Origin: Candidatus Zipacnadia bacterium
GTDB lineage: Bacteria; Armatimonadota; Zipacnadia; Zipacnadales; Zipacnadaceae
Reading direction: 5' to 3'
Assembly: GCA_029821195.1 (NCBI GenBank)
Contig: JALGTU010000014.1
Coordinates: forward strand, 1 to 32,612
DNA: 32,612 nucleotides
The notes under the pieces are model-generated. The model saw nothing but the letters and a program-made list of their open reading frames with translations, had not been told where the DNA came from and ran no database searches. Shown one piece after another: positions 12,280 through 32,612 of this stretch (positions within the stretch are counted from its first letter, which is position 1; every line of letters begins with the position of its first letter). Position numbers and translations under genes: made by a program.

Positions 12280-12314
12280 GAGAGCGCCCTATGTTTTTTT
12301 GCTCGTCGCCGTTC

Positions 12315-12397
12315 GGTACGACAGGCGTCTCGCCTGTCGAGCATTGGGCAGTATCGTGTGATGCTTAAGACCGGACAGGCGAGACGCCTGTCCTACC
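12315..12397. repeat. Paired-palindrome (REPIN/BIME-like) element, copy 2
   Basis: Two palindromic units in opposite orientation: the left unit 12315-12338 contains ACAGGCGTCTCGCCTGT, and the right unit 12373-12397 contains ACAGGCGAGACGCCTGT. The outer flanks are inverted copies as well (GGTACG on the left, CTACC on the right). The 34-base centre is unique. The same core occurs at 5108-5132, where it is also paired. It lies between the dehydrogenase and the aminotransferase and may attenuate or stabilise the transcript. No encoding transposase is seen. Confidence 0.75.
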
Positions 12398-12431
12398 ATC
12401 CGAGAGTAGCACTAGCTGAGTTTATGCAGAG

Positions 12432-13748: not shown

Positions 13749-13753
13749 GGAGT

Positions 13754-15001
13754 ATGCCAGTTGTGGACGAGCAGAACATAGCAGCTTACCTGGGAAATCA
13801 GGCCGACCGCGCGACGGGGATACTCAGCCGGCTCATTGAGATCCCGTCGGTTGCCGGCGGCGAGGGACCGGTGGCGGAATATCTGCACGAGCTGCTCGCC
13901 GGCGTCGCCGACGTGTGTGAGTTCGTGCCGGTAACCGAGGCGATCAAAGCCGACCCCGACTACTCTTCGCCGCTCAAGGGGCTCAAATACGGCGACCGGC
14001 CTAATCTGCGGGTGGTCCGCCAGGGCAGCGGCGGGGGCAAGTCGGTGATCTTCAACACCCACATGGATGTCGTGCCGCCGTCCCGGCAGCACGAGCAGCC
14101 CTTTACTGCGCGGTTGGTGGACGGCAATATCTACGGGCGTGGTGCGTGTGACGCCAAGGGGCAGATTGCCACGCTTTGCCTGCTGCTCATGGCACTTGAC
14201 GAGCTGGCGATCCCGCTGGCTGGCGACGTGGAGGTGCACTTTGTCATCGAAGAGGAGGTCGGTGGCAACGGGACAGTCGCGATGGTGCGTCAAGAACCCC
14301 GTGCGGACGCCTGCATCGTGCTGGAGCCGACCGGCTTTGGGATCCACCCCCAGATTCGCGGCGCGGTCTGGTTCGAGGTCAGCGTCTACGGCCGGGCTGG
14401 TCACAGCGGCGCGCCCGGCGGGACGGTCAGTGCGTTGTACAAGGCAATAGACGCAATTGAGATATTCAAGAGCTACCACAAGCGCATCCTGGCCGAAAGC
14501 CGTGGGCACTATCCGTTGTTCGATCAGTTTGAGAACCCGATGCCGCTGACCATCGGTCAGCTCGAAGCCGGCGACTTCCCCTCTCAGGCCCCGCAGACCG
14601 CTGTCTTCAAGGGCGTGTTGGGGTTGCTGCCGGACCGCACCAAGGAGCAGGTAATGGCCGAGATGCGCCAGGCTCTGCGCACCGAGGGCGACGAGTGGCT
14701 GGCCGAGCATTTCGAGATTGATTTCACCTACCGCCACGATGCCAGCATCATTGAGCCGGACCACGAGCTGGTTCAGGCGCTTGAGCGGGCCGCCGGCGCG
14801 CAGGGCGTGGCGGCCGAGGTAGCCGCGATGACCGCGTCGTGTGACGCCTGGATGTACAATAACCAGCTCGGGATCCCTACGGTGGTCTTTGGGCCGGGCG
14901 AGCTGGGTGTGGCGCACAGTAACCAGGAGCATATTGCCGGGGGCGACCTGCTCACGGGTGCTGGCATCCTGCTGGACTTTGTGCGAAGCTGGTGTGGCTA
15001 G
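13754..15001 (+). CDS. M20 family metallo-deacylase/peptidase (ArgE/DapE type)
   Basis: Zinc hydrolase that cuts an amide bond, as in acetylornithine deacetylase, succinyl-diaminopimelate desuccinylase or carboxypeptidases. Metal-site motifs are visible: H103 and D105 (NTHMDVVP), D133 in GRGACDAKG, and the general-base and metal glutamates E166-E167 (VIEEEVGGNG). A dimerisation domain begins near GAVWFEVSVYGRAGHSG. The 415-residue length is normal and there is no signal peptide, so it is cytoplasmic. AAGGAG ends one base before the ATG at 13754, too close; a GTG at 13763 lies ten bases from it and may be the real start. Pairing with the aminotransferase suggests removal of an acyl group from an amino compound, but the compound cannot be named. 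Confidence 0.9.
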   Translation: MPVVDEQNIAAYLGNQADRATGILSRLIEIPSVAGGEGPVAEYLHELLAGVADVCEFVPVTEAIKADPDYSSPLKGLKYGDRPNLRVVRQGSGGGKSVIFNTHMDVVPPSRQHEQPFTARLVDGNIYGRGACDAKGQIATLCLLLMALDELAIPLAGDVEVHFVIEEEVGGNGTVAMVRQEPRADACIVLEPTGFGIHPQIRGAVWFEVSVYGRAGHSGAPGGTVSALYKAIDAIEIFKSYHKRILAESRGHYPLFDQFENPMPLTIGQLEAGDFPSQAPQTAVFKGVLGLLPDRTKEQVMAEMRQALRTEGDEWLAEHFEIDFTYRHDASIIEPDHELVQALERAAGAQGVAAEVAAMTASCDAWMYNNQLGIPTVVFGPGELGVAHSNQEHIAGGDLLTGAGILLDFVRSWCG

Positions 15002-15020
15002 CGTAAGGGGAGGTATGTAG

Positions 15021-16058
15021 ATGTTGGCTCTGGTTAAGACTGCTAAAGGGCCGGGCAATATGGAGCTGCGAGACATGCCCAAGCCCAGCCCTGAGCCCGG
15101 AGAAGTGCTGATTGAGGTAAAGGCAGCCGGCGTGTGCGGCACCGACATTCACGTGCGGCACGATCAGTTCCCGTACTGGCCGCCGGTGATTATGGGGCAC
15201 GAGTTCGCGGGGGTGATCGCGGAGCTTGGTGAGGGCGTTGCGGACTACCAGCCTGGCGAGCGGGTGGTCGCCGAGCCGCATACCCGGGCCTGCGGCAAGT
15301 GTTACCTGTGCCGCACCGGCAATCGCCAACTCTGTGCAGATAAGCGTGCGCCCGGTTGGGGCATTGACGGCGCGTTCACCAAATACCTGGTAATGCCGGA
15401 GGAACTGCTCCACCGCCTGCCCGACAATGTCTCGTTCGAGGCCGGCGCTCTCGTTGAGCCGCTGGCGAATGTGGTAGACGACGTGCTGCTCAATGCCCGC
15501 ATGGAGGCGGAGGATTTCGTGGTGGTGTTGGGACCCGGGCCAATCGGGCTGATGGCGGCGATGTGCTGCAAGGCTGAAGGTGCAGCGGAAGTGATGATTG
15601 TGGGGACACCCGCCGATGCCGAACTGCGCCTGCCGACGGCGGAGAAAGTCGGTATTGACCATGTGGTCAACCTCGCCGAGCAGGATCCGTTGGCGCTGAC
15701 CGTGGAGCTGACCGGTGGGCGGGGTGCGGATCTGGTGGTGGAATGCTCTGGTGCCGGGCCGGCGATCAACGCGGCTTTTCAGCACGTCCGCAAGCAGGGC
15801 CGTATCTGCGCGATCGGTATGGCGGGCGGCAAGAAGATCGAACTGGACTGGGACCAGGCGATGTTCAAAGATTGCACGGTCTACTTCAACCTGTCTACCC
15901 GTTATGAGGCCTGGGATCGCACCATAAGTCTGCTGGCGAAGGGCAAGATTGATGCTGATGCACTCATATCCCATCGCGAGCGGCTGGAGAACTGGGAGCA
16001 GGTCTTCGCCGACATTGAGAGCCAGAAGGCGCTCAAAGCTCTTCTCATTCCCTCGTGA
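15021..16058 (+). CDS. Zinc-dependent alcohol dehydrogenase (threonine/sorbitol dehydrogenase-like)
   Basis: Medium-chain NAD(P)-dependent dehydrogenase oxidising a secondary alcohol or polyol. Catalytic zinc ligands are C39 (GVCGTD), H60 and E61 (MGHEFAG). The structural zinc site is complete, with C91, C94, C97 and C105. The Rossmann motif GPGPIG follows at about residues 176-181. The length of 345 residues is typical. A GGGAGG sequence stands 7 bases before the ATG, so the start is secure. It lies 19 bases after the M20 gene and 32 before the Gfo/Idh/MocA gene. Sorbitol, L-threonine and L-iditol dehydrogenases share this pattern, so the substrate is left open. Confidence 0.9.
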   Translation: MLALVKTAKGPGNMELRDMPKPSPEPGEVLIEVKAAGVCGTDIHVRHDQFPYWPPVIMGHEFAGVIAELGEGVADYQPGERVVAEPHTRACGKCYLCRTGNRQLCADKRAPGWGIDGAFTKYLVMPEELLHRLPDNVSFEAGALVEPLANVVDDVLLNARMEAEDFVVVLGPGPIGLMAAMCCKAEGAAEVMIVGTPADAELRLPTAEKVGIDHVVNLAEQDPLALTVELTGGRGADLVVECSGAGPAINAAFQHVRKQGRICAIGMAGGKKIELDWDQAMFKDCTVYFNLSTRYEAWDRTISLLAKGKIDADALISHRERLENWEQVFADIESQKALKALLIPS

Positions 16059-16090
16059 TCGCCAAAACCTGTCAAGGAAGGTGGTACTGA

Positions 16091-17152
16091 ATGCGTGAGC
16101 GTATTCGTTTTGGGTTGCTGGGCTGTGGGATGGTGTCTCAGTTCCACTGCGACGCGCTGATTCACTCCGACGAGGCCGAGCTGGCGGCCGTCGCTGATGT
16201 CGTCGAGGATAGAGCGCGCGAGGTGGCCGAGAAGTACTACTGTGAGGCAGTGAGCGTTGATGAGCTGTTCGAGCGCGACGACATTGACGTGATAAATGTG
16301 CTCACGCCCAATGCCACGCACGCCGACAACGCCATCCGCGTGGCCCAGGCTGGTAAGCACTGCGTCGTCGAGAAGCCGCCGGATATGAAGCTGTCCCAGG
16401 TAGACGCGATGGCCGCGGCCTTCGCCGCGGCAGGCCGCAAGCTGGCGATATGTCTCAACGTGCGGTTCCGACCGGCCATTGAGGCGATGAAGCAGGCCTG
16501 CGAGACGGGCCGATTCGGCAAGATTCTCCAGGGTGATGCCTATGTCAAGTGGTACCGGCCGGCGGATTACTATCAACGTGCCCCGTGGCTGCAGGACCGT
16601 AGCCAGGGCGCGGGGGTGACCATCCAGCAGGGCATCCACTATATTGACCTGCTTCAACATCTGGTGGGTCCGGTGGCCAGGGTATGGGCGGAGATGACCA
16701 ACGTGGCCCACCGGGATGTGCCTACGGTCGAAGACACGCTGCTGGCAACGTTGCACTTTGAGAAGGGGGCCCGCGGCGTCGTCCAGGCCTCAACTGCCTT
16801 CTATCCGGGTACAGACATCCGCATCGAGATCAACGGGACGCAGGGGACGGCGGTAATGGTTGGTGAACGGCTGGAGATGTGGGACTTCGAGCATGAGCAG
16901 CCCGGTGACCAGGAGGCGCGGCGGATCGGCAGCGCTGCGGCGCTCACCGGTGCCGGGGGGGCTGCGGATATCGGCTATATGGAGCACCAGCGGGTAATGG
17001 AGGATATGGTCGCGGCCATTCGTGAAGACCGCGAGCCGCGCGTCACTGCCCAGAGCGCGCGCCATACCCTCGAGATCGCGCTGGCCATGTACAAGTCAGC
17101 CGATAGCGGCGAAGAAGTAGCCCTGCCTCTGGATCCGTCCTTCGAACTGTGA
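16091..17152 (+). CDS. Gfo/Idh/MocA family oxidoreductase
   Basis: NAD(P)-dependent oxidoreductase acting on sugars, inositols or related polyols. The N-terminal Rossmann fold starts with FGLLGCGMVSQFH, and the family EKP motif is at 94-96. A conserved HYIDLL segment near residue 182 fits the catalytic His region. It is 353 residues long, as usual, with no Tat or Sec signal, unlike many planctomycete relatives. The ATG at 16091 has AAGGAAGG upstream. It closes the plus-strand operon, and a hairpin terminator lies between it and the convergent DUF4838 gene. Together with the alcohol dehydrogenase it suggests oxidation of a sugar or polyol-like moiety. Confidence 0.92.
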   Translation: MRERIRFGLLGCGMVSQFHCDALIHSDEAELAAVADVVEDRAREVAEKYYCEAVSVDELFERDDIDVINVLTPNATHADNAIRVAQAGKHCVVEKPPDMKLSQVDAMAAAFAAAGRKLAICLNVRFRPAIEAMKQACETGRFGKILQGDAYVKWYRPADYYQRAPWLQDRSQGAGVTIQQGIHYIDLLQHLVGPVARVWAEMTNVAHRDVPTVEDTLLATLHFEKGARGVVQASTAFYPGTDIRIEINGTQGTAVMVGERLEMWDFEHEQPGDQEARRIGSAAALTGAGGAADIGYMEHQRVMEDMVAAIREDREPRVTAQSARHTLEIALAMYKSADSGEEVALPLDPSFEL

Positions 17153-17261: not shown

Positions 17262-19682
17262 TCACTGGAACTTCAGCGCGCCCCAGTACTTGGGATTGCA
17301 AGCAAAGCCGCCCTTACTCTCGCGGGTCTGGCCCTCTGGCTGCCAACTCAGAACGTAGGGGGTCTTGCCCCGCTTGCTCAGCATAATCGGCTTGACCAGG
17401 ATTAGCGGGCTCTTCAGCTTGTAGTAGGAGACGATCTTGGCATTGACCTTCCAGCCTTCTGCCGGATCTTCCATGCCCAGGCTGGCCAACGGGATCTTGA
17501 TCTCCAGCAGCCACTGGCCCTCGCTGCGGCTGTCGGCCACCTCCGCCTGGGGCGACCAGGCCTTGCTGGCGCTATTCTCCGGTTGATGGTACAGCTTGCC
17601 ACTGGCCTTGCCCGCGCCGTTGACCGACAGTACGTAACGCTGCCCCTGCGGCGAGCAGAACATCGCCTGGAAGCTCTCGGCCTTCTTCTTGGGGTCTTCA
17701 TCCGAGCCTACGCGCACGCCCAGATAGAGGGCATCGTCGGAGTAGACAATCTGGCAGCTGCTGCCCAGATAGTCGTAGAAGCCGCCGCGCTCCGCCGTCC
17801 CCTGGGTGCGATAGAAGGTCATCGGTTCGGCCGCCAGCCAGCACGGATCGTCGAGCTCACCGTCCAGATTCGGAACCGCGGATATGGCGGCATAAGTCGG
17901 CGGGTTGGCCTTCTGGTCCAGCAAGGTTTCCCAGGGCTGATAGTCGTGGATGAGCATGTCAATCCGCTGGGCGTACTTGCTGCCGTCGGGCACCTGCTGG
18001 CGGGCCTCGCGGAGCCGCTTCATACAAAGCTGGGCGAAGGGCAACTCGTATTTGTCTTCGCGCCGACCGCGCTCGGGGTGGCTTTCGCTCCAGGCTCGCT
18101 GCAGCTCCTCGTAGAATACCCGCATGGTCCTCTCCGCCGGCCCGTAGAAGCGCCGGTAGTACTCGTCGAGCATCTCTTCGATGTCCTGGTCGGGGTCTTC
18201 CATAAAGCGGGCGGTGACGTAGAGGTTTAGCCCGTCCATCGCAATGTGGCCGTTCTCCACCAAAGCGTGCTGAAACAGCGACTCGATCTCGATCTGCTCG
18301 CCCTTGATCTTGCCACTCATAAACTGGAAGTCCTTAGCAATCACCCGCGGGCAGATCAGCGGGATAGGATTAGCCCAGTATTTGTACAGATAGTACTCCC
18401 AGATCGAGATGTTGGGAGTCATCTTTGACCAGGTGCTAATCCGTGCCCAGTCGCGGTCCCAGGTTTCTTGGTTCATATACAGGCTGACGCGCTCTTTACA
18501 GATCTGCACGCCGATGTTATCCGGTAGTTCAGTCATGCCCTCGGGCGGGATGCCGTAGGTGGCGTAAGCGCAGTTGGTGATGTAATACTGGGGGAAGCGG
18601 TCCTTCACCAGTTCAGCCACCTTGACCACCAGCGGCCAGACTACGTGTGAGGTGTAGTCCTGGCTGTGGAAGGGCAGGCCCCCCTCCTCCTGCTTGCGCA
18701 GCCCCAGCTTCCTATCCATGATACACAGCGGGCAGTCGCAGATGTGCGTGGCGTTGAAGCCGTCCGGCGGCATTATCGGATATGAAGCCCCCGGGGCCAG
18801 ATTGTGGCCCTCGAAGTACTTGATAGCCTGCTCGGCGTAGAACTCCGGCAGCCCGGGCGCATTCGTGCACAGATAAACCGGGTAGCTCTTACTCACTAAT
18901 GTTTTGCCGTTTTTCATCGCGAAGAACTCGTTGTGTCCGGAGGCGATAATGGCCTTGGCGATCTTGTGCCAGCTATGGTTGGCCATCGGGCACGGGCCGG
19001 CCCCGCCAAAGCCGACGCGGAAATGCCACTTGACGAACTCCGGATTGCAGACATTGAGCGGGGCGCGGATATCGCGGAAATTCAGAGTCGGTTTCTTGCG
19101 GATCTGCACCGACCCGGGGAACTCCAGGGCCGTCGCCTCAGGTACTTCCTCGCCAATTTCAGTGGGCAGATACCAGCGTACGTCGCCGTAGTCGCGCAGG
19201 AAATGCCATACGCCCCGGCAGGTGCCCATGCTGGTGCGCCGGGAAACCCCTTCTATGCTCGAGGGCCGATCATCGTTCTTCTTGACCTCGGCGTCGGGGT
19301 CGTACGGCTCATCTCGGCCCACAATGACCAACTGTCCCGAATCGGTCCCGCCGGCCATCACGTACTCATCCGGGTCTAGCTCGCCGACCTCGGCGAGCAG
19401 CGCCTTGCCGGGCGCCGTAGCGCCGACGTAGATGACGAAGTGGCCCTCCGTTTTACGGTAGGCCATTTCCCGAATTGCCTGAAAGCGCACCCCCGCAATC
19501 TTGCCCAGGTAAGTCACCAGGTCGTCCGCGGCCCACGACTCGAGCACGTTTGGCGCGTCGGGGATCACCACATCCACGGCAGGCGCGCCGTCCTTCACCA
19601 GCGCAATATTGCCCGCCGCGCAGTTGACCACACACAGCGCAGTCATCGCCCCCACTAACAGCATTACTACGTGCAATTTCAT
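17262..19682 (-). CDS. Secreted DUF4838 protein with GH67-like N-domain and CBM9-like C-domain (array copy 1)
   Basis: The 806-residue product opens with a Sec-type signal peptide (MKLHVVMLLVGAMTALCVV). A GH67 alpha-glucuronidase-like N-terminal domain follows to about residue 200, including ADDLVTYLGKIAG. The DUF4838 core runs to about 580, with NHSW, the cysteine motif CDCPLC, a WEYY segment whose Glu is kept in all paralogues here, and MEDPDQDIEEMLDEYY. The C-terminal 200 residues resemble a CBM9/DOMON-like sandwich of the kind that binds sugars. I chose the ATG at 19682 because AAAGGAGG stands in front; an in-frame ATG 11 codons upstream would spoil the signal peptide. DUF4838 proteins are widely predicted glycoside hydrolases but few are characterised. 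Uronosidase activity is inference. Confidence 0.88.
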   Translation of the reverse strand: MKLHVVMLLVGAMTALCVVNCAAGNIALVKDGAPAVDVVIPDAPNVLESWAADDLVTYLGKIAGVRFQAIREMAYRKTEGHFVIYVGATAPGKALLAEVGELDPDEYVMAGGTDSGQLVIVGRDEPYDPDAEVKKNDDRPSSIEGVSRRTSMGTCRGVWHFLRDYGDVRWYLPTEIGEEVPEATALEFPGSVQIRKKPTLNFRDIRAPLNVCNPEFVKWHFRVGFGGAGPCPMANHSWHKIAKAIIASGHNEFFAMKNGKTLVSKSYPVYLCTNAPGLPEFYAEQAIKYFEGHNLAPGASYPIMPPDGFNATHICDCPLCIMDRKLGLRKQEEGGLPFHSQDYTSHVVWPLVVKVAELVKDRFPQYYITNCAYATYGIPPEGMTELPDNIGVQICKERVSLYMNQETWDRDWARISTWSKMTPNISIWEYYLYKYWANPIPLICPRVIAKDFQFMSGKIKGEQIEIESLFQHALVENGHIAMDGLNLYVTARFMEDPDQDIEEMLDEYYRRFYGPAERTMRVFYEELQRAWSESHPERGRREDKYELPFAQLCMKRLREARQQVPDGSKYAQRIDMLIHDYQPWETLLDQKANPPTYAAISAVPNLDGELDDPCWLAAEPMTFYRTQGTAERGGFYDYLGSSCQIVYSDDALYLGVRVGSDEDPKKKAESFQAMFCSPQGQRYVLSVNGAGKASGKLYHQPENSASKAWSPQAEVADSRSEGQWLLEIKIPLASLGMEDPAEGWKVNAKIVSYYKLKSPLILVKPIMLSKRGKTPYVLSWQPEGQTRESKGGFACNPKYWGALKFQ

Positions 19683-19732
19683 CTTGCCATCCTCCTTTGT
19701 CAAGCTATTATGCACGTCCGAAGATTGAGCTA

Positions 19733-19795: not shown

Positions 19796-22192
19796 TTACT
19801 CGAATTGGAGGCTCCCGTAGTACTTGGGATTGTAGGCGAAGCCGCCGAGGCTGGCCTTGGTCTGGCCCTCTGGCTGCCAGGTGCAGATGTGCATAATCTT
19901 GCCCCGATAGTGCTGCATATACGGCTTGCCCAGGAGCAGCGGACTATGAATTATGCGATGCGACCAGAGCTTGGCGTTGATCCGCCAGCCGTCTTCGGGC
20001 TTCTCTATGCCGAGGTCGGCCAACGGCAGCCGCATCTCGAAGGTCCATTCGCCCTCGCCGAGCTTGTCGGTGACCTCGCCATGAAACGGCCATTTCGCCT
20101 TTTCGTCTGAATTGGGGGCGTAAGTGGCCGAGGTCTTTGCGCCGTGGCTGACCCGCAGCATATACCGGCGCCCTTCCGGCGAGCAGAAGATAAGCTCGAA
20201 CTTCTCATTTCCCCGGCGCTTGCGTTCTGTCGGCCCGGCGTCAGTGCCCACTCGCACCGCCACGTAGAGGTCGTCGGCGTTGCGAATGATGCAGCAATAG
20301 CTGCCCAGGCCATCGGGGAAGCCGCCTCTGTCCGGATAGCCCTGAGACAGGTAGAACTGCATCTGCTGCACGCTGATCCAGCAAGCGTCGTCAAGCACAG
20401 CATCCAGGTTGGGAATTGCTTCTGACACCCGGCAGCGGTACGTGCGCGGGTTGACTTTTTGGTCCAGCAGCGTCACCCACGGCTGGTAGTCGTGGATTAG
20501 CATATCAATGCGCTGAGCGTACTTGCTGTCTTCGGGCACCTGCCGGCGTGCCTGGTGCAGTCGGTCCATCATACTGCGGGCAAACTCAGCGCTATCGTCG
20601 TACGATTCTGCATGGTAGGCCGACCTGGGGCGCTTGGGCCATTCATATTCGATGTCGTGATAGAAGGCTGCCATGGTCTTGGCCGCAGGGCCGTAGAACA
20701 AGTCAAAATACTCGGCGAGGACCTGGTCAACGTCCTGGTCGGCATCTTCCAGGAAGCGGGCGGTGATGTAGTAGTTCAATCCGTCCATCGCGAGCAGTCC
20801 GCCTTCTAACGGAGCGGTGAGGAACGTGGAGCTTGTTTCCGCCCTCAGGCCCTCCACGTTCCTCCCCTTGGCAAACTGCCATAGCTCGGCAACGCGATGT
20901 GGGTCAACCACCGGGTCAGCGCGGGTCCAGTAGTGCCAGAGGTACCACTCCCGGATACCAATGTGCTTGACCTTCTCGGACCACAGGCCGATCGTTTCGA
21001 CCGAGGGACCACACAGCTCGATGCCCACGTTGTCGGGGAAGACCTCGATGTCCTCCGGTGGCATGCTGTAGTTGCTGTAAGCGAAACAGGTCACGAAATG
21101 CTCCGGAACCCGATCCTTGACTAGCTTTGCCACCTTCGCCACGATGGGGAAGACGTAGTCTGAGCAATAGTTTCGGCGGGAGAAGCCTGGGTTCGGGTTC
21201 TCCTGCTGGCGCCGCTCGGCCTCGCGCTTGTCCAGGATGCACAGCGGGCACTCGCAGATGTGCGCGGGGCCGTAGCCGTCCATCGGCCCCAGCAAGTACG
21301 AACTGCCTGGGGCATAGTTATGCGTCTCGAAGTACTCCACCATCAGGTCGGCGATGAACTCGGGCAGGCCTGGTGCATTCAGGCACAGGTAGCCAGTGCC
21401 TCGTTTGGTCCCGTCCGCTTTCAGCGCCAGGAAGTCGGTCCGGCCCGCCTTCTCGGCCGCCTTGCCAATCTTGCTATGGCTGTGGTGACAGAAAACTCCC
21501 GGGCCGGGCCAGCCGTAGCCGACTCGGAAATACCAGCGGACGAACTCCTCGGTGGTCCAGTTTAGCCCCGGGCGCAAGTCGCGCATCGGAAAATCGGGGA
21601 CCTTGCGGATCAGTACCGACGACGGGAAATCGAGCATCTCCGCGGGCGGGACAACTTCACCGAGCTCCCCCGGAAGATACCAGCGCACCCCACCGTACTT
21701 GCGCAGCAGGTGCCAGACACCCCGACACGTCCCCAGGTTGCTGCGCGTGCCGATACCCTTGATCACACTCTCCCGCTCCTCTTGCTTCTTGACCTCGGCC
21801 TCCGGGTCGTAGGGCTCATCTCGGCCCACAATGACCAACTGTCCGGAATCCGTGCCTCCGGCCATTATGAACTCATCGGGTCTGAGTTCGCCGGCCTCGG
21901 CGAGCAGCGCCTTGCCGGGCCCGGTAGTGCCGACGTAGATCACAAACCGGCCTTCGGCTTTGGCGTAGGCCATTTCCCGGACGGCCTGAAAGCGTACGCC
22001 CGCCATCTTGCCCAGGTAGGTCACCAGGTCGTCCGCTGCCCACGACTCGATCGCGTTCGGCGTATTCGGAATCACGACATCCACGGCGGGCTGGCCGTTC
22101 TTGACCAAATCAATGCCCTCCGCCGCCGCGCAGCTAGCAACGCGCACGGCAATGCTCACTACCATCAACAACACCAGTATTTGCAGTTTCAT
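19796..22192 (-). CDS. Secreted DUF4838 protein with GH67-like N-domain and CBM9-like C-domain (array copy 2)
   Basis: Middle paralogue of the tandem array, 798 residues. It has a signal peptide (MKLQILVLLMVVSIAVRVA), the GH67-like N-domain (ADDLVTYLGKMAG), the DUF4838 core with HHSHSK, CECPLC and LEDADQDVDQVLAEYF, and a C-terminal sandwich ending YNPKYYGSLQFE. The Trp of the WEYY segment is replaced (REWYLWHYW) but the Glu is kept. GGAGGATGGCAGAATG supports the start. It is the most diverged of the three in the spacer and core, so it may prefer a different linkage or sugar; this is inference from divergence only. It lies 113 bases upstream of copy 1 in the direction of transcription, presumably on one message. 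Confidence 0.88.
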   Translation of the reverse strand: MKLQILVLLMVVSIAVRVASCAAAEGIDLVKNGQPAVDVVIPNTPNAIESWAADDLVTYLGKMAGVRFQAVREMAYAKAEGRFVIYVGTTGPGKALLAEAGELRPDEFIMAGGTDSGQLVIVGRDEPYDPEAEVKKQEERESVIKGIGTRSNLGTCRGVWHLLRKYGGVRWYLPGELGEVVPPAEMLDFPSSVLIRKVPDFPMRDLRPGLNWTTEEFVRWYFRVGYGWPGPGVFCHHSHSKIGKAAEKAGRTDFLALKADGTKRGTGYLCLNAPGLPEFIADLMVEYFETHNYAPGSSYLLGPMDGYGPAHICECPLCILDKREAERRQQENPNPGFSRRNYCSDYVFPIVAKVAKLVKDRVPEHFVTCFAYSNYSMPPEDIEVFPDNVGIELCGPSVETIGLWSEKVKHIGIREWYLWHYWTRADPVVDPHRVAELWQFAKGRNVEGLRAETSSTFLTAPLEGGLLAMDGLNYYITARFLEDADQDVDQVLAEYFDLFYGPAAKTMAAFYHDIEYEWPKRPRSAYHAESYDDSAEFARSMMDRLHQARRQVPEDSKYAQRIDMLIHDYQPWVTLLDQKVNPRTYRCRVSEAIPNLDAVLDDACWISVQQMQFYLSQGYPDRGGFPDGLGSYCCIIRNADDLYVAVRVGTDAGPTERKRRGNEKFELIFCSPEGRRYMLRVSHGAKTSATYAPNSDEKAKWPFHGEVTDKLGEGEWTFEMRLPLADLGIEKPEDGWRINAKLWSHRIIHSPLLLGKPYMQHYRGKIMHICTWQPEGQTKASLGGFAYNPKYYGSLQFE

Positions 22193-22299: not shown

Positions 22300-24726
22300 T
22301 CACTCGAACTGGAGGGTCCCGTAGTACTTGGGATTGTACGAGAAGCCCTTGGCCTCTGGCTGCCAGGTGAGGACATAGCGAGTATTACCCCGGCGTTGGG
22401 ACATAATCGGCTCGGCCCAGATGAGCGGACTCTTTAGCATGCGCCAGGAGCGCAGCTTCACGTTCATCCGCCATCCGCTCGCCAACGGGTCCGTACCCAG
22501 ATCGGCCAGCGGCAGCTTGACTTCCACTTGCCACGTGTTCTTGTCATTGCCAAAATAGCGGGAGTTGTCGGCAACCTCAACATCAACCGGCCATTCTTCG
22601 CTTTCATCTGCGCCGGGCGCATAAACGGTGCTCTGGACCTTGCGGGGGAGAACCACTGTGAGCACATACCGTCGTCCCTCTGGTGAACAAAGCGCGACCT
22701 CAAGCTGCTCGGGTACGCGTCCCCGGTTCTTCCGGTCGGCGTCACTGGGGACCCGTGCCCCCACCCATAGAGCGTCGGTAGTATGCACCATGCGGCAGTC
22801 AATCCCCATGGTATCGGGGAAGCCGCCCCGTTCCGCATACCCCATCGTGAGATACAGGGGTATCTGGTCGGCCCCGTCCCAGCAGGCCTCGTCCAACTCG
22901 CCGTCCACTTGAGGAGCAGTCTGGGCCTTCCTGCATCGGTACGCCGGCGGATTCATCTTCTGCTCCACCAGGTTGAGCCAGGGCTGGTAGTCGTATATCA
23001 GCATATCAATGCGCGTGGCGTACTTACTGTCGTCGGGAACCTGTTGGCGTGCGTTGTGCAGACGATTCAACGCCTGGCGGGCAAACTCGACGTCGTACCA
23101 GTCCTCCTCGGAGCCGGCCTGGGGCTTGTAGGGAGCCTCCTCTTCGATCATCCGATAAAAGCTCTGGATCGTCTTCGCCGCGGGGCCGTAGTAGCGGTCA
23201 AAGTACTCCGCCAGCACCTGCTCGATATCCTGGTCGGCATCCTCCAGGAAGCGACCGGTGACGTAGTAGGTCAGCCCGTTCATTCCCAGGTACCCGCCGT
23301 CGAGTGGCGACCGGTTGAACAGGTGATACACTTCTATCTGCTCACCGAGTGACTTGCCCTTGAGCCATTGTAAGTCTTCGGCGATGAGATGAGGCACCAC
23401 CATGGGCTCGGGACGGGCCCAGTAGTGCTGCAGATAGTACTCCCACACGGATAGCGCCTGGCACTTCTCGGCCCAGGCCCTTATCTTGGCACGGGCTGCT
23501 TCCTTTCTGGTGGGGTCTGTATAGCCGTGCCGGGCTTTGCAGATCTGAATGCCCACGTTGTCCGGGAACCGCTCGACGTTCTGAGGTGGTTGACCGTAGT
23601 TGGCGTACGCGATGCAGCTTATGAAGTGATCGGGCACTCGCTCCTTGACCAGCGCGGCCACCTTCGCCACGATGGGAAAGACGTAGTGCGAGCAGTAGTT
23701 GCGGTTTTGGAAGCCCTCGTGCTCGTGCCGGGCCTCCCGCCGCTCACCCTCGCGCTTATCCAGGATGCACAGCGGGCATTCACAGATGTTTCTGACGCTG
23801 TAGCCGTCTGCTGGCGATATGGGGTACGAACTGCCAGGAGGAAGCGGGTTGTCCTCGAAGTACTTCACCACCTGGTCAGCCCAGAACGCCGGCAAGCCCG
23901 GCGCGTTGAGACACAGGTAGACGGGGTAGGACGTCCGCACATTGGTCTTGCCGTCGTACATCGCGTAGAACTCGTTGTGGCCGGATTCCTTTATCGCAGG
24001 TCCAATCCAATGATGACTGTGATTAGCCCAGGGCGCAGCGCCCGCCCAGCCGTAGCCCACTCGGAAATACCAACGCGTGAAATCGAGGGACGTCCGGTTC
24101 AGCGGCGCACGCAAATCGCGCATCTGAAAGTCCGGCGCCTTGCGGACCCGCACTGAGGCGGGCAGACTTAGTGTATCGGAGCTCGGCACCTCCTCACCGA
24201 TCTCGCCAGGGATGTACCAGCGTACGCCGCCATAGTTGCGCAGAAGATACCATACGCCCCGGCAAGTGCCGAGACTGCTGCGCGCGCCGATGCCCTCGAT
24301 GAGGCTACCCCGGTCGTTTTGTTTCTTGATTTCAGCCTCGGGATCGTACGGCTCGTCTCGGCCGATGATGACCAGTTGGCCTGAGTCGGTCCCTCCGGCC
24401 ATTATGAACTCATCGGGTCCAAGTTCGCCAGCCTCGGCGAGCAGCGCCTGGCCGGGGGCCGTCGCGCCCACGTAGATCACGAACTTACCTTCGTCTTTCG
24501 TGAACTGGCTCTCCGGAACTGGCTCGAACGTCGCTCGCGCCATCTTGCCCAGGTACAGCGCCAGGTCCTCGGCAGCCCACTTCTCCACCGGGTTCATCCC
24601 ATCGGGGACCACGATGTCCACGGCGGGCTGACCGTTTTTGACCAGGGCAATACTGCCCGCCGCGCAGTTGACCACAGACAGCGCAGTGATCGCCCCCACC
24701 AACAGCATTACTATGTGCAATTTCAT
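22300..24726 (-). CDS. Secreted DUF4838 protein with GH67-like N-domain and CBM9-like C-domain (array copy 3)
   Basis: First complete paralogue of the array in transcription order, 808 residues. The signal peptide MKLHIVMLLVGAITALSVV is nearly the same as in copy 1, which marks these two as close relatives at the 5' end. The domains follow the same order, with NHSHHW, CECPLC, VWEYYLQHYW, LEDADQDIEQVLAEYF and the ending YNPKYYGTLQFE. The N-domain differs locally (WAAEDLALYLGKMARATFEPVPESQ). An ATG 20 codons upstream (24786) is open, but AAAGGAGG lies 7 bases before 24726 and only this start leaves the signal peptide at the N-terminus. Just upstream lies a relic of a further copy. Confidence 0.88.
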   Translation of the reverse strand: MKLHIVMLLVGAITALSVVNCAAGSIALVKNGQPAVDIVVPDGMNPVEKWAAEDLALYLGKMARATFEPVPESQFTKDEGKFVIYVGATAPGQALLAEAGELGPDEFIMAGGTDSGQLVIIGRDEPYDPEAEIKKQNDRGSLIEGIGARSSLGTCRGVWYLLRNYGGVRWYIPGEIGEEVPSSDTLSLPASVRVRKAPDFQMRDLRAPLNRTSLDFTRWYFRVGYGWAGAAPWANHSHHWIGPAIKESGHNEFYAMYDGKTNVRTSYPVYLCLNAPGLPAFWADQVVKYFEDNPLPPGSSYPISPADGYSVRNICECPLCILDKREGERREARHEHEGFQNRNYCSHYVFPIVAKVAALVKERVPDHFISCIAYANYGQPPQNVERFPDNVGIQICKARHGYTDPTRKEAARAKIRAWAEKCQALSVWEYYLQHYWARPEPMVVPHLIAEDLQWLKGKSLGEQIEVYHLFNRSPLDGGYLGMNGLTYYVTGRFLEDADQDIEQVLAEYFDRYYGPAAKTIQSFYRMIEEEAPYKPQAGSEEDWYDVEFARQALNRLHNARQQVPDDSKYATRIDMLIYDYQPWLNLVEQKMNPPAYRCRKAQTAPQVDGELDEACWDGADQIPLYLTMGYAERGGFPDTMGIDCRMVHTTDALWVGARVPSDADRKNRGRVPEQLEVALCSPEGRRYVLTVVLPRKVQSTVYAPGADESEEWPVDVEVADNSRYFGNDKNTWQVEVKLPLADLGTDPLASGWRMNVKLRSWRMLKSPLIWAEPIMSQRRGNTRYVLTWQPEAKGFSYNPKYYGTLQFE

Positions 24727-24816
24727 TCTGCCGTCCTCCTTTGTCAAGCTAGAGTATCGGTACGCAAAGACCACATTGCTCGGCAAGTGCCAAACCTAGT
24801 ACTTTTCTATGACATC

Positions 24817-26714: not shown

Positions 26715-27749
26715 GTGATTCACAAATACGTCGGCTCCCGTGTCGGGTTGCTGGGTAACCCCTCCGACGGATTCGGGGGCAAAACTATCGCAGCAATGAT
26801 TGATAACTTCTGGGCTTCGGTCACGATACGTTATAGCCCGCAGGTCCGGATTATCCCCCATCCCCACTTCGATCCCTTCAGCTTCAGCAGCTTCGATGAA
26901 CTGGCCCGGGTCGCCTCTCGCGACGGCTACCACGGCGGTATCCGCCTGGTTTACGCGGCGTGCAAGCGGTTCTATGATTATTGCCGCGAGCACGATATCG
27001 CTCTCGCCGACGACTGCTTTACCATCCAGTATGACACCAATATCCCTCGCCAGGTCGGACTGGCCGGCTCCAGTGCCATTGTCACCGCCACTATCCAGGG
27101 GCTGATGGAGTTCTACGAACTGACCGATGATGACATTCCCCGGCACTTGCAGCCCCACCTGGTGTTGTCGGTGGAGACGGAGGAGCTCGATATTCAGGCC
27201 GGTCTTCAAGACCGCGTCGTCCAGGTCTACGGCGGCGCCGTCTATATGGACTTCAACCCGGAATATATGGCGCAGCACGGCCACGGGGGCTACGAGCCAA
27301 TACCTCTGGAGTTGTTGCCCCCGATGTACGTCGCCTGGAACCCGCACGCAACGGTTACCTCCGGCAAGGCTCATAATCCGATGCGGTTCCGCTACGACGA
27401 GGGTGACCCCGAGGTCATCGCCGGGATGAAGGAGCTTGCCGATTATGCCGCTGCGGGCTACGCGGCGCTGCAAAACGGCGATTTTCGGACTTTCGGTGAG
27501 TTGATGGACAACAACTTCGACCTGCGCCGGCGGCTGTACGGTGACGAGGCCCTCGGTCAGCAAAACCTGGCGATGATTGAGATTGCTCGCCGGCACGGGC
27601 TTCCGGCCAAGTTCCCCGGCTCGGGCGGCGCGATCGTAGGCATATATGACGATCCTGACCGGGTCGAGTGCGTTGGCGAAGACCTGGCCAAGGCAGGTTA
27701 TCGCTTCACGCTGGTGAAATCCACTCGCGGCATAAGCGAAAAACAGTAA
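26715..27749 (+). CDS. GHMP kinase resembling plant glucuronokinase
   Basis: Predicted to phosphorylate D-glucuronate at C1 to glucuronate-1-phosphate, with ATP, in the cytoplasm. The GHMP phosphate loop is PRQVGLAGSSA (111-121), and the third motif PGSGG is at 301-305. From memory, Arabidopsis glucuronokinase shares many blocks in the same order: RxGxLGNPSD (9-18), NFWASV (31-36), GYxGGxRL (71-78), YDTNIPRQ (106-113), AGLQDRVxQVYGG (162-174) with putative catalytic D166, NFDLRRR and KFxGSGGA. Other GHMP kinases such as galactokinase or the heptose kinases do not share all of these. The length of 344 residues fits. The GTG at 26715 has GGGGA six bases upstream. It is the first gene of an operon with two secreted DUF4838 proteins, which suits uptake and salvage of a released uronic acid. 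Enzyme activity remains a prediction. Confidence 0.85.
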   Translation: MIHKYVGSRVGLLGNPSDGFGGKTIAAMIDNFWASVTIRYSPQVRIIPHPHFDPFSFSSFDELARVASRDGYHGGIRLVYAACKRFYDYCREHDIALADDCFTIQYDTNIPRQVGLAGSSAIVTATIQGLMEFYELTDDDIPRHLQPHLVLSVETEELDIQAGLQDRVVQVYGGAVYMDFNPEYMAQHGHGGYEPIPLELLPPMYVAWNPHATVTSGKAHNPMRFRYDEGDPEVIAGMKELADYAAAGYAALQNGDFRTFGELMDNNFDLRRRLYGDEALGQQNLAMIEIARRHGLPAKFPGSGGAIVGIYDDPDRVECVGEDLAKAGYRFTLVKSTRGISEKQ

Positions 27750-27823
27750 CCGCCGGCCCAAACACCAGGCCCACAAGTCTGAGCCGGCCCATTAGCCCCT
27801 GCGCAAAACAGAGGTGACAACCC

Positions 27824-29635
27824 ATGCCCCGACTGGTATCCCGGACGCTCGTAGCCTTCGCTGTCATATCAATCGCCGGGCTGGCGCATCCGGCCGAGGG
27901 CACCGCCGCCCTGGTCATCGTCCAGGATGGTCAACCCCGGGCCACTATTGTGGTGGCCGATGAGCCCGACGCGATCATAAGCTGGGTCAAACAAGGGGCT
28001 TTCAAGGCAAACTTGACCACTCAATATGCCGCCGAGCAGTTGCAGCTATACCTGGCAAAGGTCACTGGGGCGAAGCTGCCTATTGTCAAAGAGTCGCAAG
28101 CGCCCACTGGCCAGACGCTCATTCTGCTGGGACGCAGCGGCTTCAACGAGCAACGCGGGGTTACCCCTGATGGTCTGGACCCCGAGGGCTTTATCATCCG
28201 CACTGACCCCGGCTCTATTAGCATTGTCGGCGAGATCGGCCCCGAGGGCAACTGGCAGGCGGGGATAGACCGCGGGACGTTGTGGGGAGTTTACGAGTTT
28301 CTCGAGCGTGTCTGCGGCATTCGCTGGTATTTTGCCGGCGAAGACGATCTGGGCATTGTCATCCCTAAGCAGCAAACGATTACCGTGCCACCGATGACGC
28401 TGGTCAAGGCTCCGGCCTACCAATACCGCACCGGGGCGGTTCCCTCCTCCGGCATTGACTGGTTCCCGGTGGCCCGGCCCGGTAATTCCACCGGCTTCTG
28501 GGCCAACCATACTCACGGGCTTCCGTGGGCCAAGGCCTTCGGCGCTGAGCATCCCGAATACTTCGCTCTCCGGCGCGACGGCACCCGGATGATGGATCCC
28601 GAAGACACCTCCTGTCATACCAACCACCTCTGTTACACCGAGCCGGGCGTGCTCGCCCAGGAGATAAAGAACATCGCGGAGTACGACAAGACCGGCCGCA
28701 GCGTCTGGATGGACTCGTATACTCGTCCCACCGCCTGGTACGTCAAGTTTTGTCCTCAGGATACGGAGGTCGTGCGCCATTGCACCTGCCCGCGCTGCCA
28801 GGCCCTCTGGCGCCCGTACGAGGGAGTTGGCGGGCAGGACGCCAAGCTCTCCGAAATCGTATTCGGGTATGCCGCCCGGCTGGCCAATGCGGTCGGCGAG
28901 CGCTGGCCGGGCCGGCGGGTGGGTGCAAATGCGTACGCCGGCTTCCTCAACGTGCCCCGTACCGTGGAGATACCCGATAATCTCGACGTGATGTACTGTA
29001 TGTTCTGGGGCAGCACACTCCAGAAGGAGCCGGAGTTCTGGGAGCAGGAACGCAAGCGCATCAGTGAATGGGTCGAACTGCTTGGCCACGACCGCAGCCG
29101 CTTCTATATCTGGGAATACTTCTACTATCCCAACCGCTTCGGCGAAGCGCCCATGTTTTCGCCGCACGTAATGTGGCGCTTCTACCGCGAGAACCAGCCC
29201 CACGTAAAGGGTGCCTTCAACAACGGTCTGGGCATACGGTACGGCAACAAGAGCAAGCTGACCTGGCTGATTGCCTATTTATGGCACAGAGTCCTGTGGG
29301 ACCCCAGCCAGGACGTAGATGAACTGCTGGCTGAGTTTTACCAGAAGATGTTTGGCCCGGCCGAAAAGCCAATGAAAGAATTCTTTACACTGATCATTGA
29401 CCGCTGGGAAGGTACCGACTGGGTTGGGCGGGCGCCGGGCTGGGGTTACGGTGTCACCAAGGGTCAACTCTACTACGAGACCTATCCCCGCGAAGTGATC
29501 GAGCGGCTGATCGCTCTGCTGGAAAGGGCCAAGATGATGGCGACGGAGGGCAGTATCTACGCGCGGCGAGTGCAGTGGTACGCCGACGCTCACTCGGATT
29601 TCTTCGCAGAAGCGAAGAAGTCTCAGAAGTGGTAG
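27824..29635 (+). CDS. Secreted DUF4838 protein without C-terminal sugar-binding domain (copy 4)
   Basis: The 603-residue product has a signal peptide (MPRLVSRTLVAFAVISIAGLAHP), a GH67-like N-domain (AAEQLQLYLAKVTGAKLPIV) and a DUF4838 core with NHTHGLPW, CTCPRC, IWEYFYYPNR and QDVDELLAEFY. It ends at SDFFAEAKKSQKW, exactly where copy 5 continues into its CBM9-like domain, so it is a naturally shorter form or a truncated one. The start follows AGAGGTGAC at good spacing. It lies 74 bases after the kinase. It is closer to copy 5 than to the minus-strand copies, with long near-identical stretches at the DNA level (for example around 28540-28640 and 30380-30500), pointing to a fairly recent tandem duplication. 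Confidence 0.9.
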   Translation: MPRLVSRTLVAFAVISIAGLAHPAEGTAALVIVQDGQPRATIVVADEPDAIISWVKQGAFKANLTTQYAAEQLQLYLAKVTGAKLPIVKESQAPTGQTLILLGRSGFNEQRGVTPDGLDPEGFIIRTDPGSISIVGEIGPEGNWQAGIDRGTLWGVYEFLERVCGIRWYFAGEDDLGIVIPKQQTITVPPMTLVKAPAYQYRTGAVPSSGIDWFPVARPGNSTGFWANHTHGLPWAKAFGAEHPEYFALRRDGTRMMDPEDTSCHTNHLCYTEPGVLAQEIKNIAEYDKTGRSVWMDSYTRPTAWYVKFCPQDTEVVRHCTCPRCQALWRPYEGVGGQDAKLSEIVFGYAARLANAVGERWPGRRVGANAYAGFLNVPRTVEIPDNLDVMYCMFWGSTLQKEPEFWEQERKRISEWVELLGHDRSRFYIWEYFYYPNRFGEAPMFSPHVMWRFYRENQPHVKGAFNNGLGIRYGNKSKLTWLIAYLWHRVLWDPSQDVDELLAEFYQKMFGPAEKPMKEFFTLIIDRWEGTDWVGRAPGWGYGVTKGQLYYETYPREVIERLIALLERAKMMATEGSIYARRVQWYADAHSDFFAEAKKSQKW

Positions 29636-29675
29636 TAACTGTGCAGCATCGCATAATTGAGAAAGGGTGAATGAA

Positions 29676-32089
29676 GTGAACCGATTCTTTTCGTTTGCTG
29701 CAGTTATCTGGATGTTTATCCTTGTCGGTGCGGCCCTCGCCGCAGAAGAAGCGCCCAAGCTGGTCATAGTCAAAGATGGCCAGCCCGCTGCGACCATTGT
29801 CGTGGCCGACGAGCCTGACGCGATCATCAGCCGGGTCAAGGCCGGCGGCTTCAGCGCCAGTCTGACCACCGAATACGCGGCGGAGCAGCTTCAGCTCTAT
29901 GTCGAGCAGGTCACCGGGGCCAAGCTGCCTATCGTCAAGGCCTCGCAAGCACCCGACGACCAGATTCTGATCCTGGTGGGCCGCAGTTCGCTTACCAAGC
30001 AGCGCAACATAACCCCTGAGGGTCTGAAGCCCGAGGGGTTTATTATTCGCACCGATGCCGACTCGGTCACGATCCTCGGCGAAATCGCACCCGAGGGCAA
30101 CTGGCAGGCGGGCATAGACCGCGGGACGCTGTGGGGAGTTTACGAATTCCTGGAACGCGTTGCCGGGGTACGGTGGTATTTCCCCGGCGAGCTGGGCACG
30201 GTTATTCCCGCGAAAAAGACGCTGGTGGTCGAGCCGATGACCGTGGTGATGGCGCCCGCTTTCCAGTTGCGTCTGGGCGGAGGTATTGGTTCCGGACCTG
30301 AGTGGCTGCCGGTCGCTCGGCCTGGCAACAGCACCGGCTTCTGGGCGAATCACACTCACGGCTTGCCGTGGGCGAAGGCGTTTGGCGCTGAGCATCCCGA
30401 ATACTTCGCCCTCCGCCCCGACGGCACCCGGATGATGGACCCCGAAGACACTTCCTGTCACACGAATCACCTCTGTTATACCGAGCCGGGCGTGGTTGAG
30501 CAGGACCTGGCGAATATCGCCCAATACGATAAGACCGGCAAGAGCGTCTGGATGAGTTCGTACACCCGACCCAACGCCTGGTACGTCAAGTTTTGCCCAC
30601 AGGACAGTGAGAAGATATTTCACTGCACTTGCCCACGCTGCCGCGCTAAGTGGCGACTTAATGACCCTCGGGGCAAGCTCTCTGAGATAATCTTCGGCTA
30701 CGCTGCCGCACTGGCGCGCGGGGTTGCCCAACGCTGGCCAGGCCGGCGGGTCGGCGCCAACGCCTACTCCGGCTTCGAGACCATCCCGCACACCGTGGAG
30801 ATCCCGGACAACCTCGACATAATGTACTGTATGCTAAGCGGGACGACGATGCAGAAAGAGCCGTGGATATGGGACGTCGAGCACAAGGTCATTGACGAGT
30901 GGATTGAGCTGCTCGGCCACGACCGCAAGCGCTTCTATATCTGGGAGTATTTCTACTATCCCAACCGCTTCCACGAAGCGCCGATGTACTCCCCGCACGT
31001 GCTGTTCCGCTTCTATCGCGAGTACCAGCCCTTTGTTATGGGTGTATTCAACAACGGCTTGAGCCAGAAATATGGCAACAAAGCTAAGTTGACACTGCTG
31101 ATCGGGTGGCTGAACCACAAGGCCCTGTGGAACCCCGGGCAGCGGGTGGACAGGCTACTCAGCGATTTCTATGACAAGATGTTCGGCCCGGCAAAGCAGC
31201 CGATGGGCAAATTCTTCAACCTGCAAATCAGCACCTGGGAGAACAGTCGCTGGATTACTCGTGCTCCCGAGGACGTCTACAATTGCACCAAGCAGCAGAT
31301 TTACGGCGAGACCTACACAGCCGACGTCGTTGACCAGCTCAGAGCATATCTCGACGAAGCCCGGGCCGCCGCACCTGAGGGGAGTATATATGCCCAGAGG
31401 GTCGAGTTCTATGCAGAGGCCCACGCCGACTTCTTCGCCGAGGCTGCGCAGTTCCGGAAGTACGGCGGCCCCGCGCCCGAGTTCACAGCTAAGCGGGTGC
31501 AAGCGCCGCCGGTGCCCAACGGCGTGCTTGACGAGGCAAGCTGGCAGCAACCTGCGCCCATTTCGCTGGTGAAGTGGGAAATGGGGGAGACGCCCGAGGC
31601 GGCGACGAATGTTTGGCTGGCGCACGATGACGAGCGCCTCTTCATCGCGGCTCGGTTGGCCGAGGCGACGCCGGATCAGTTGGTCGCTAACGCAGCCGAG
31701 CGTGACGACCCGGCGGGCACCGGTGACGACCTGTTTGGCATCCAGATAGACTCAGGCCGGGGCTTTCCGCTGGGCCTGCCGAGCTATTACGAGATACTGG
31801 TCAACTCGCGGGGCCAGATCCTGGACTCGCTCAAGTACGAGCCGATCTTCTGGGATGGCTACCACCACAGCGCCGAGTGTGAGGCCTGGGATGCCGAGGG
31901 CCTCAAGGCCGCCGCGCAGGTCGGCTGGCGGCCATTCCCGAGTGGCAGGAGCATGTGCCCGACACAATCCGCGTGCAGGTCGTTCGCTCCAAGCGCACTC
32001 AGCCCGGCGAGAAGACGATATGGTGGCCGACGCTGGCGCCCAGCTACGAGAACCCGACCTCCCGCTTCGTCTCCGTCCGGTTGGACTAG
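29676..32089 (+). CDS. Secreted DUF4838 protein with CBM9-like domain, frameshifted near its end (copy 5)
   Basis: Signal peptide (MNRFFSFAAVIWMFILVGAALA), GH67-like N-domain, DUF4838 core (NHTHGLPW, CTCPRC, IWEYFYYPNR) and a CBM9-like domain beginning near VPNGVLDEASWQQ. In one frame the reading stays protein-like to about 31930 (KAAAQVGWR) and then turns into Arg/Pro/Ser-rich nonsense, ending at 32132. One frame over, from about 31931, it reads AIPEWQEHVPDTI and continues as a normal sandwich end to FVSVRLD and a TAG at 32087-32089, so one base has been lost near 31923-31934. It could be a real mutation or a sequencing error. GTG at 29676 is preferred over the in-frame GTG at 29667 because AAAGGG lies at good distance. 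Confidence 0.85.
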
Positions 32090-32107
32090 GCCAGGCGCGG
32101 CACCCAA

Positions 32108-32612
32108 CTACTCAGTCCACGGTGCGCTGTAGTCCTGCACATCATCGCGCAGGCGAGCCAGTTCTGCTTTGAGTTCCCGGACGGTCTCGGCGTAGGCCGG
32201 CTCGGCGTAGACGCTGTTCATCTCCATGGGGTCGTTGTCGAGATCGAACAGCTCCCACTCGGGCGGCCGGGGATCGTCAATCGCGCCCGGCGCATCCAGC
32301 GCCTCGCCGTAGTAGTAGATCAGCTTGTATCGCTTTGTGCGCACGCCGTAGTGGGCGCAAACCGTGTGCCCACCACCACGGTGCATCCAGTAGCGGTAGT
32401 ACATTGACGTCTGCCAGTCTTCAGGAGTCTGCCCTTGCAGCAAGGGGCGGATGCTGCTGCCCTGAAGGTCGTCGGGAATGTCCAGGCCGGCGTAGTCGAG
32501 GAACGTCGGCGCGAAGTCGTTGTTCAAAATCATATCCGCGTTAGATGTAGCCGGCTTGATTTCCCTCGGATAGCGCACAATGAAAGGCATCCGCAGCGAT
32601 TCTTCGTACATA
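32108..32612 (-). CDS. Sulfatase, C-terminal part (runs off the window)
   Basis: C-terminal 168 residues or so of a type I sulfatase (arylsulfatase A-like), which hydrolyses sulfate esters. The visible start MYEESLRMPFIVRYP is an internal motif of these enzymes, normally preceded by a GxHGxxDK-type segment, and it is followed by NNDFAPTFLDYAG and, near the end, YKLIYYYG and WELFDLDNDPMEMNSVY. The catalytic formylglycine motif and signal peptide lie beyond the right edge, so activity cannot be judged. It converges on copy 5 with only 18 bases between the stops when the frameshift is corrected. A sulfatase next to glycan-acting genes is common in loci for sulfated polysaccharides. Confidence 0.88.
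   Translation of the reverse strand, partial: MYEESLRMPFIVRYPREIKPATSNADMILNNDFAPTFLDYAGLDIPDDLQGSSIRPLLQGQTPEDWQTSMYYRYWMHRGGGHTVCAHYGVRTKRYKLIYYYGEALDAPGAIDDPRPPEWELFDLDNDPMEMNSVYAEPAYAETVRELKAELARLRDDVQDYSAPWTE

Follow-up and report, generated by a model that had tools for sequence, protein, structure and literature searches.

Gene content and conservation of the locus

The window, by which we mean the entire analysed stretch of 32,612 nucleotides from Candidatus Zipacnadia bacterium, encodes a GHMP kinase surrounded by five genes for secreted DUF4838 proteins, with a partial sulfatase gene at its end. The features relevant to the present analysis are:

26715..27749, plus strand: GHMP sugar-1-kinase, treated here as a putative member of the glucuronokinase family (344 aa, GTG start)
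27824..29635, plus strand: secreted DUF4838 protein of 603 aa; co-transcription with the kinase is possible in this species, but the link is not conserved
29667..32132, plus strand: secreted DUF4838 protein (821-aa ORF) with a sub-threshold GH67 N-domain
32108..32611, minus strand: SGSH_C-type sulfatase, C-terminal fragment truncated at the contig end
24926..26485, minus strand: secreted protein, divergent neighbor of the kinase with a weak GH42-like match only and a putative relation to it
17262-19715, 19796-22192 and 22300-24786, minus strand: three more secreted proteins with the DUF4838 domain

The 344-residue kinase reading frame reported in the initial annotation is present on the plus strand, and its product matches the Pfam domains GHMP_kinases_N and GHMP_kinases_C, both above their cut-offs. 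The AlphaFold model of the protein (pLDDT 91.9, pTM 0.91) adopts the GHMP fold, the closest solved folds being those of mevalonate kinase, galactokinase and the heptose kinases at about 13-20% identity. The closest orthologue, from a sister species, is 81% identical to the window kinase. The nucleotide differences between the two genes are mainly at third codon positions, and this, taken together with the excess of synonymous over nonsynonymous change (dN 0.12, dS 0.61, dN/dS about 0.19), suggests that the gene is under purifying selection and does not represent a chance reading frame. The genome encodes two copies of the kinase, which are 58% identical to each other.

The first of the downstream DUF4838 genes has its ATG start 75 bases past the kinase stop codon, with AGAGGTGA just upstream, and a gap of 31 bases separates it from the second. 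The last 60 or so residues of the second reading frame are rich in Arg, Pro and Ser and overrun the sulfatase gene on the opposite strand (31900-32132); it is likely that a frameshift, either real or due to an assembly error, is present near position 31950. Elsewhere in the window, a run of same-strand genes at 11257-17152 encodes hydroxyacid dehydrogenase-like, class III aminotransferase-like and peptidase/deacylase-like proteins, a zinc alcohol dehydrogenase resembling threonine or scyllo-inosose dehydrogenase, and a Gfo/Idh/MocA dehydrogenase. This run looks like a separate catabolic operon.

Affinities of the kinase within the GHMP fold

The window kinase recovers the curated NCBIfam equivalogs of the GHMP fold with very low scores, namely 33.8 bits against a cut-off of 163 for mevalonate kinase, 28.4 against 600 for HddA, and 15.5 against 443 for GalK, and the Pfam search reported no galactokinase-specific domain. 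Its best relative with a solved structure is HddA (PDB: 3k85, 4n3o), at only 24% identity, and long alignments with the solved GHMP members in general show about 24% identity or less. No glucuronokinase was found among the solved structures. The plant reference used in our comparisons was a provisional Arabidopsis GlcAK1 sequence that does not come from a database record, and the results that depend on it are to be taken as leads. This provisional sequence is 47% identical to the window kinase over 329 residues, and with another Armatimonadota protein its identity reaches 56%. In the tree the provisional sequence is nested within the bacterial family (SH-aLRT 99), with only the Hebobacterum version (L114) falling outside, and the bacterial family as a whole forms a clade separate from the galactokinases, heptose-phosphate kinases and mevalonate kinases. 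Of the 60 columns that are conserved across 35 bacterial kinases, the provisional sequence matches 58; other GHMP kinases match far fewer of the family-conserved columns (HddA 25 of 53, MvaK 17 of 57, E. coli GalK 19 of 54). Given the 47% identity, the nesting and the agreement in conserved columns, we treat the window kinase as a probable member of the glucuronokinase family, with the reservation that the reference is a provisional sequence.

The sequence blocks of plant glucuronokinases that had initially been described in this protein are present when judged against the provisional Arabidopsis sequence. Its assignment to the glucuronokinases, as opposed to the galactokinases or heptose kinases, is supported by the equivalog scores, the solved relatives and the conserved columns, as well as by the GHMP tree, in which it groups with the provisional GlcAK1 and apart from both of these lineages. 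The common GHMP fold and the weak profile matches might be taken to indicate an ordinary galactokinase, heptose-phosphate kinase or mevalonate kinase that has been misread; however, with every score far under the curated cut-off, low identity to all solved members and a separate clade in the tree, this proposal is already contradicted and we regard it as exceedingly improbable. A deeper paralogue, 30% identical (L028; G021:C179:6818-7753), is possibly a kinase of another sugar.

Phyletic patterns and conserved gene neighborhoods

In a scan that used a single genome for each species, at least 474 relatives of the kinase were recovered from approximately a dozen phyla. The best 80 of these at least 474 relatives come from Armatimonadota, Poribacteria, Latescibacterota, Hydrogenedentota, Bacteroidota, Verrucomicrobiota, Planctomycetota, Acidobacteriota, Chloroflexota, KSB1 and Pseudomonadota, and in the phylum of the window the kinase is present in 42 of 237 genomes. 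The family is widespread in bacteria, and its members include one encoded on a plasmid of Rufibacter tibetensis, where galU directly follows the kinase gene. Versions with 51% and 42% identity are also found on two IMG/VR "viral" contigs (L130 and L131), which are either phage-borne or misassigned bacterial DNA; no eukaryotic glucuronokinase was recognized in the viral contigs, and none in phages.

The commonest neighbor of the kinase is a GalU-type uridylyltransferase, which in 17 of 80 loci immediately adjoins it in the same orientation, with a spacing of 1-112 bases in all of these cases but one. With GalU homologues making up 22 of the 820 genes, the hypergeometric probability of this adjacency is about 9e-13, a value to be read with the caveat that related loci do not count as independent. 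This linkage undergoes at least nine changes of state on the tree, suggesting that it has been repeatedly gained or lost, and is also seen beside the most basal member of the family, L114. In two genera (L054 and L055) the gene immediately upstream of the kinase encodes a UDP-glucuronate decarboxylase, as indicated by a score of 297 bits to UXS1 structures versus 121 to the next epimerase kind and by the signature YDEGKR. In two Hydrogenedentota loci the kinase is preceded, at a distance of 40 bases, by a sodium:solute symporter gene, whose homologue in a Latescibacterota locus comes after the kinase-GalU pair. The window kinase itself is adjoined by no GalU, UXS or transporter gene. On the whole, these computations establish that the kinases form a GHMP family of their own, with a wide bacterial spread, a linkage to GalU and, in two genera, a linkage to UXS.

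Other neighborhoods recur in certain lineages. Seven loci from Hydrogenedentota and related contigs (cluster c7: L092, L095, L097, L102, L103, L116 and L121) have, directly after the kinase, an rsmI-like methyltransferase gene, an assignment made by eye from the sequence; this arrangement has no apparent functional reason. In the KSB1-type genomes (L098 and L123) the kinase is flanked on one side by a carbamoyltransferase gene and on the other by a MutY-like one.

The second copy of the kinase in the genome of the window (contig C182) is embedded in an exosortase-type exopolysaccharide cluster together with genes for a polyprenyl sugar phosphotransferase, the exosortase, a GalU (253 bits to TIGR01099) and a UDP-GlcA-4-epimerase-like protein. 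The solved relatives of the latter include 6zl6 and 6kv9, which we take to be UDP-glucuronate 4-epimerases, the top one being 5u4q, labelled as a dTDP-glucose 4,6-dehydratase. A UDP-glucuronate 4-epimerase has been described from Bacillus cereus (PMC7984243). In the genome G006, the exopolysaccharide cluster of the second kinase copy also holds a UDP-glucose dehydrogenase.

The linkage to GalU and exopolysaccharide genes is compatible with any sugar-1-phosphate, and GHMP kinases are known to switch substrate. The family could therefore be conceived of as sugar-1-kinases feeding UDP-sugar synthesis from another sugar, such as galacturonate, N-acetyl-hexosaminuronate, rhamnose, a pentose or a neutral hexose, with the likeness to the plant enzyme reflecting common descent and not a shared substrate. 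The WbpP/TviC-type affinities of the epimerase in the cluster of the second copy and an L-rhamnose mutarotase in the sister-species locus could be accommodated by such a proposal. Nevertheless, the near-complete agreement of the provisional plant sequence with the family-conserved columns, the decarboxylase and 4-epimerase-like neighbors that point toward UDP-glucuronate, and the selectivity of the characterized zebrafish member for glucuronate (PMC3938481) argue against it, and we consider a different substrate to be unlikely.

Genomic setting of the window copy

The sulfatase at the end of the window is clearly orthologous to the one beside the kinase of the sister species (84% identity, the next best match being 34%), and in both species the sulfatase gene is located downstream of the kinase and in the reverse orientation to it. 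Also encoded in the sister-species locus are TauE/SafE, GH38 and L-rhamnose mutarotase proteins, a GH2/heparinase II-III-like protein, and another whose GH67 N-domain scores above the cut-off. This conserved sulfatase linkage, in conjunction with the gene content of the sister locus, favors placing the window copy in a glycan-degradation setting, one which is absent from two orthologous loci of the same genus (L031 and L032). The genome as a whole (G000, contigs C8-C216, 3.0 Mb) contains 32 sulfatase matches and 24 DUF4838 genes, pointing to a strong expansion of its genes for secreted glycan-processing proteins; the sister genome G003 has 9 sulfatase matches.

The degradative context had originally been framed as an operon of the kinase with GH67-like DUF4838 proteins. 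Of this, the context itself is retained, resting on the conserved sulfatase and on the GH67 N-domain and heparinase-like genes of the sister locus, whereas the operon is not. The proposal of a dedicated operon, with the DUF4838 proteins as alpha-glucuronidases supplying glucuronate to the adjacent kinase, is consistent with the shared strand and the short gaps of about 75 and 31 bases, and with the GH67 N-domain protein next to the sister-species kinase. It also draws on a structure model of DUF4838, but this model is weak (pLDDT 60) and matches the folds of GH115, GH84, GH20 and GH67 alike. Against this, about 100 other loci showed no DUF4838 gene that shares an operon with the kinase, the two matches there being distant and on the opposite strand, and the DUF4838 genes number 24 in this genome; the arrangement is hence not a conserved unit. 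Membership of the DUF4838 proteins in GH67 also fails to find support: the N-domain (PF03648) reaches 17.9 bits, below the cut-off of 24.3, in the protein encoded at 29667-32132, no match to it was reported in the one at 27824-29635 or in the other DUF4838 proteins, and the Pfam search recovered no GH67 catalytic domain in any of them. Given these observations, we regard the dedicated operon as quite improbable.

A predicted route from glucuronate to UDP-glucuronate

The above analysis leads us to favor, as the likely explanation, a bacterial glucuronokinase that salvages glycan-derived glucuronate by way of GlcA-1-P and, through GalU, UDP-GlcA for exopolysaccharide. Glucuronate would be set free from glycans, probably sulfated ones, and the kinase is predicted to phosphorylate it at C1 (ATP + D-glucuronate -> D-glucuronate-1-phosphate + ADP). 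A GalU-type uridylyltransferase, with a putative activity on GlcA-1-P, would then generate UDP-GlcA, which could enter exopolysaccharide synthesis directly or via 4-epimerization or decarboxylation. GalU normally produces UDP-glucose. We infer that D-glucuronate is the substrate, that the reaction occurs at C1, that the sugar is imported, and that any part of the DUF4838 proteins would lie in glucuronate release.

The linkage to a uridylyltransferase, which UDP-GlcA salvage would predict, is seen both for the family and in the cluster of the second copy. UxaC was not found in this 95%-complete genome, with seven control genomes giving positives, as would be anticipated if glucuronate is not sent to the isomerase pathway. 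Along with the GalU, UDP-GlcA decarboxylase and UDP-GlcA epimerase-like neighbors in relatives or in the cluster of the second copy, this supports the salvage role put forward in the initial annotation. The accompanying suggestion that the route bypasses the isomerase/Entner-Doudoroff pathway is more readily understood as activation to UDP-GlcA and less so as catabolism.

The nucleotidyltransferase at 7895-8932, which had been raised as a candidate for the next step, has as its best NCBIfam match the mannose-1-phosphate guanylyltransferase model. It lies 18 kb from the kinase on the opposite strand, in a different neighborhood with genes for a 3-phosphoglycerate-dehydrogenase-like protein, an aminotransferase and RecJ. 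Given its ManC-like nature and the presence of a GalU homologue in the exopolysaccharide cluster, it was rejected as the pyrophosphorylase.

A full UDP-glucose dehydrogenase was not found in this 95%-complete genome; a member of the dehydrogenase family is present in 195 of the 237 genomes of the phylum. It is missing from 18 of 42 kinase-positive genomes versus 24 of 195 kinase-negative ones, but as 10 of the 11 kinase-negative genomes of the same order also lack it, its absence appears to be a trait of the clade and gives no sign of replacement by the kinase, a reading that was accordingly set aside. The genome has a UDP-glucuronate decarboxylase homologue (L144; G000:C89:5773-6711), and such homologues (within L136-L148) also occur in several members of the order whose genomes lack both the dehydrogenase and the kinase. 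In a search for myo-inositol oxygenase as a candidate source of glucuronate, no control gave a match. A more far-reaching scenario, which we hold to be doubtful, is that the lineage without UDP-glucose dehydrogenase depends on salvage alone for its UDP-GlcA, with the duplicated glucuronokinases joining the degradation of foreign sulfated glycans (the window copy) to the synthesis of its own exopolysaccharide (the second copy), and with the plant enzyme derived from the bacterial family by gene transfer.

Comparison with known systems

Bacteria are generally taught to make UDP-glucuronate by oxidizing UDP-glucose. If the proposed salvage is correct, many uncultured phyla would have a further route to it, shared with plants and fish, that starts from free glucuronate; hundreds of proteins annotated as "GHMP kinase" would gain a testable name, and a bacterial outgroup would become available for the origin of the plant enzyme. 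The plant and zebrafish glucuronokinases are established, together with a pyrophosphorylase, and for bacteria and archaea only the pyrophosphorylase is reported in the same study (PMC3938481). We found no biochemical report of a bacterial glucuronokinase in the open-access literature; the function has been predicted from annotation in algal-associated bacteria (PMC8571626). Hence, the kind of enzyme is already known, and the reportable part is its bacterial spread, its pairing with GalU and its double setting.

Among the known systems, HddA (the D-glycero-D-manno-heptose phosphate kinase) shares the GHMP fold and provides the best solved relatives, but is set apart from the window kinase by the identity, profile scores and conserved columns given above. 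The DUF4838 neighbors resemble the GH67 alpha-glucuronidases in their secreted, glycosidase-like architecture and weak N-domain match, and differ from them in scoring below the Pfam cut-off, in the lack of the catalytic domain and in a predicted fold that is equally close to GH115, GH84 and GH20. Plant glucuronokinase (Arabidopsis GlcAK1, EC 2.7.1.43) belongs, by its provisional sequence, to the same GHMP family and has the same proposed conversion of GlcA to GlcA-1-P and UDP-GlcA. Its GlcA comes from myo-inositol oxygenase or wall turnover (PMC3938481), and its partner is a broad UDP-sugar pyrophosphorylase, whereas the bacterial kinase is paired with GalU and occurs in exopolysaccharide or glycan-degradation loci. 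Zebrafish DrGKUP, a fusion of glucuronokinase and putative pyrophosphorylase (PMC3938481), resembles the bacterial pair in combining the kinase with a bacterial-type short nucleotidyltransferase in UDP-GlcA salvage, the two activities being fused in animals and encoded by separate adjacent genes in bacteria.
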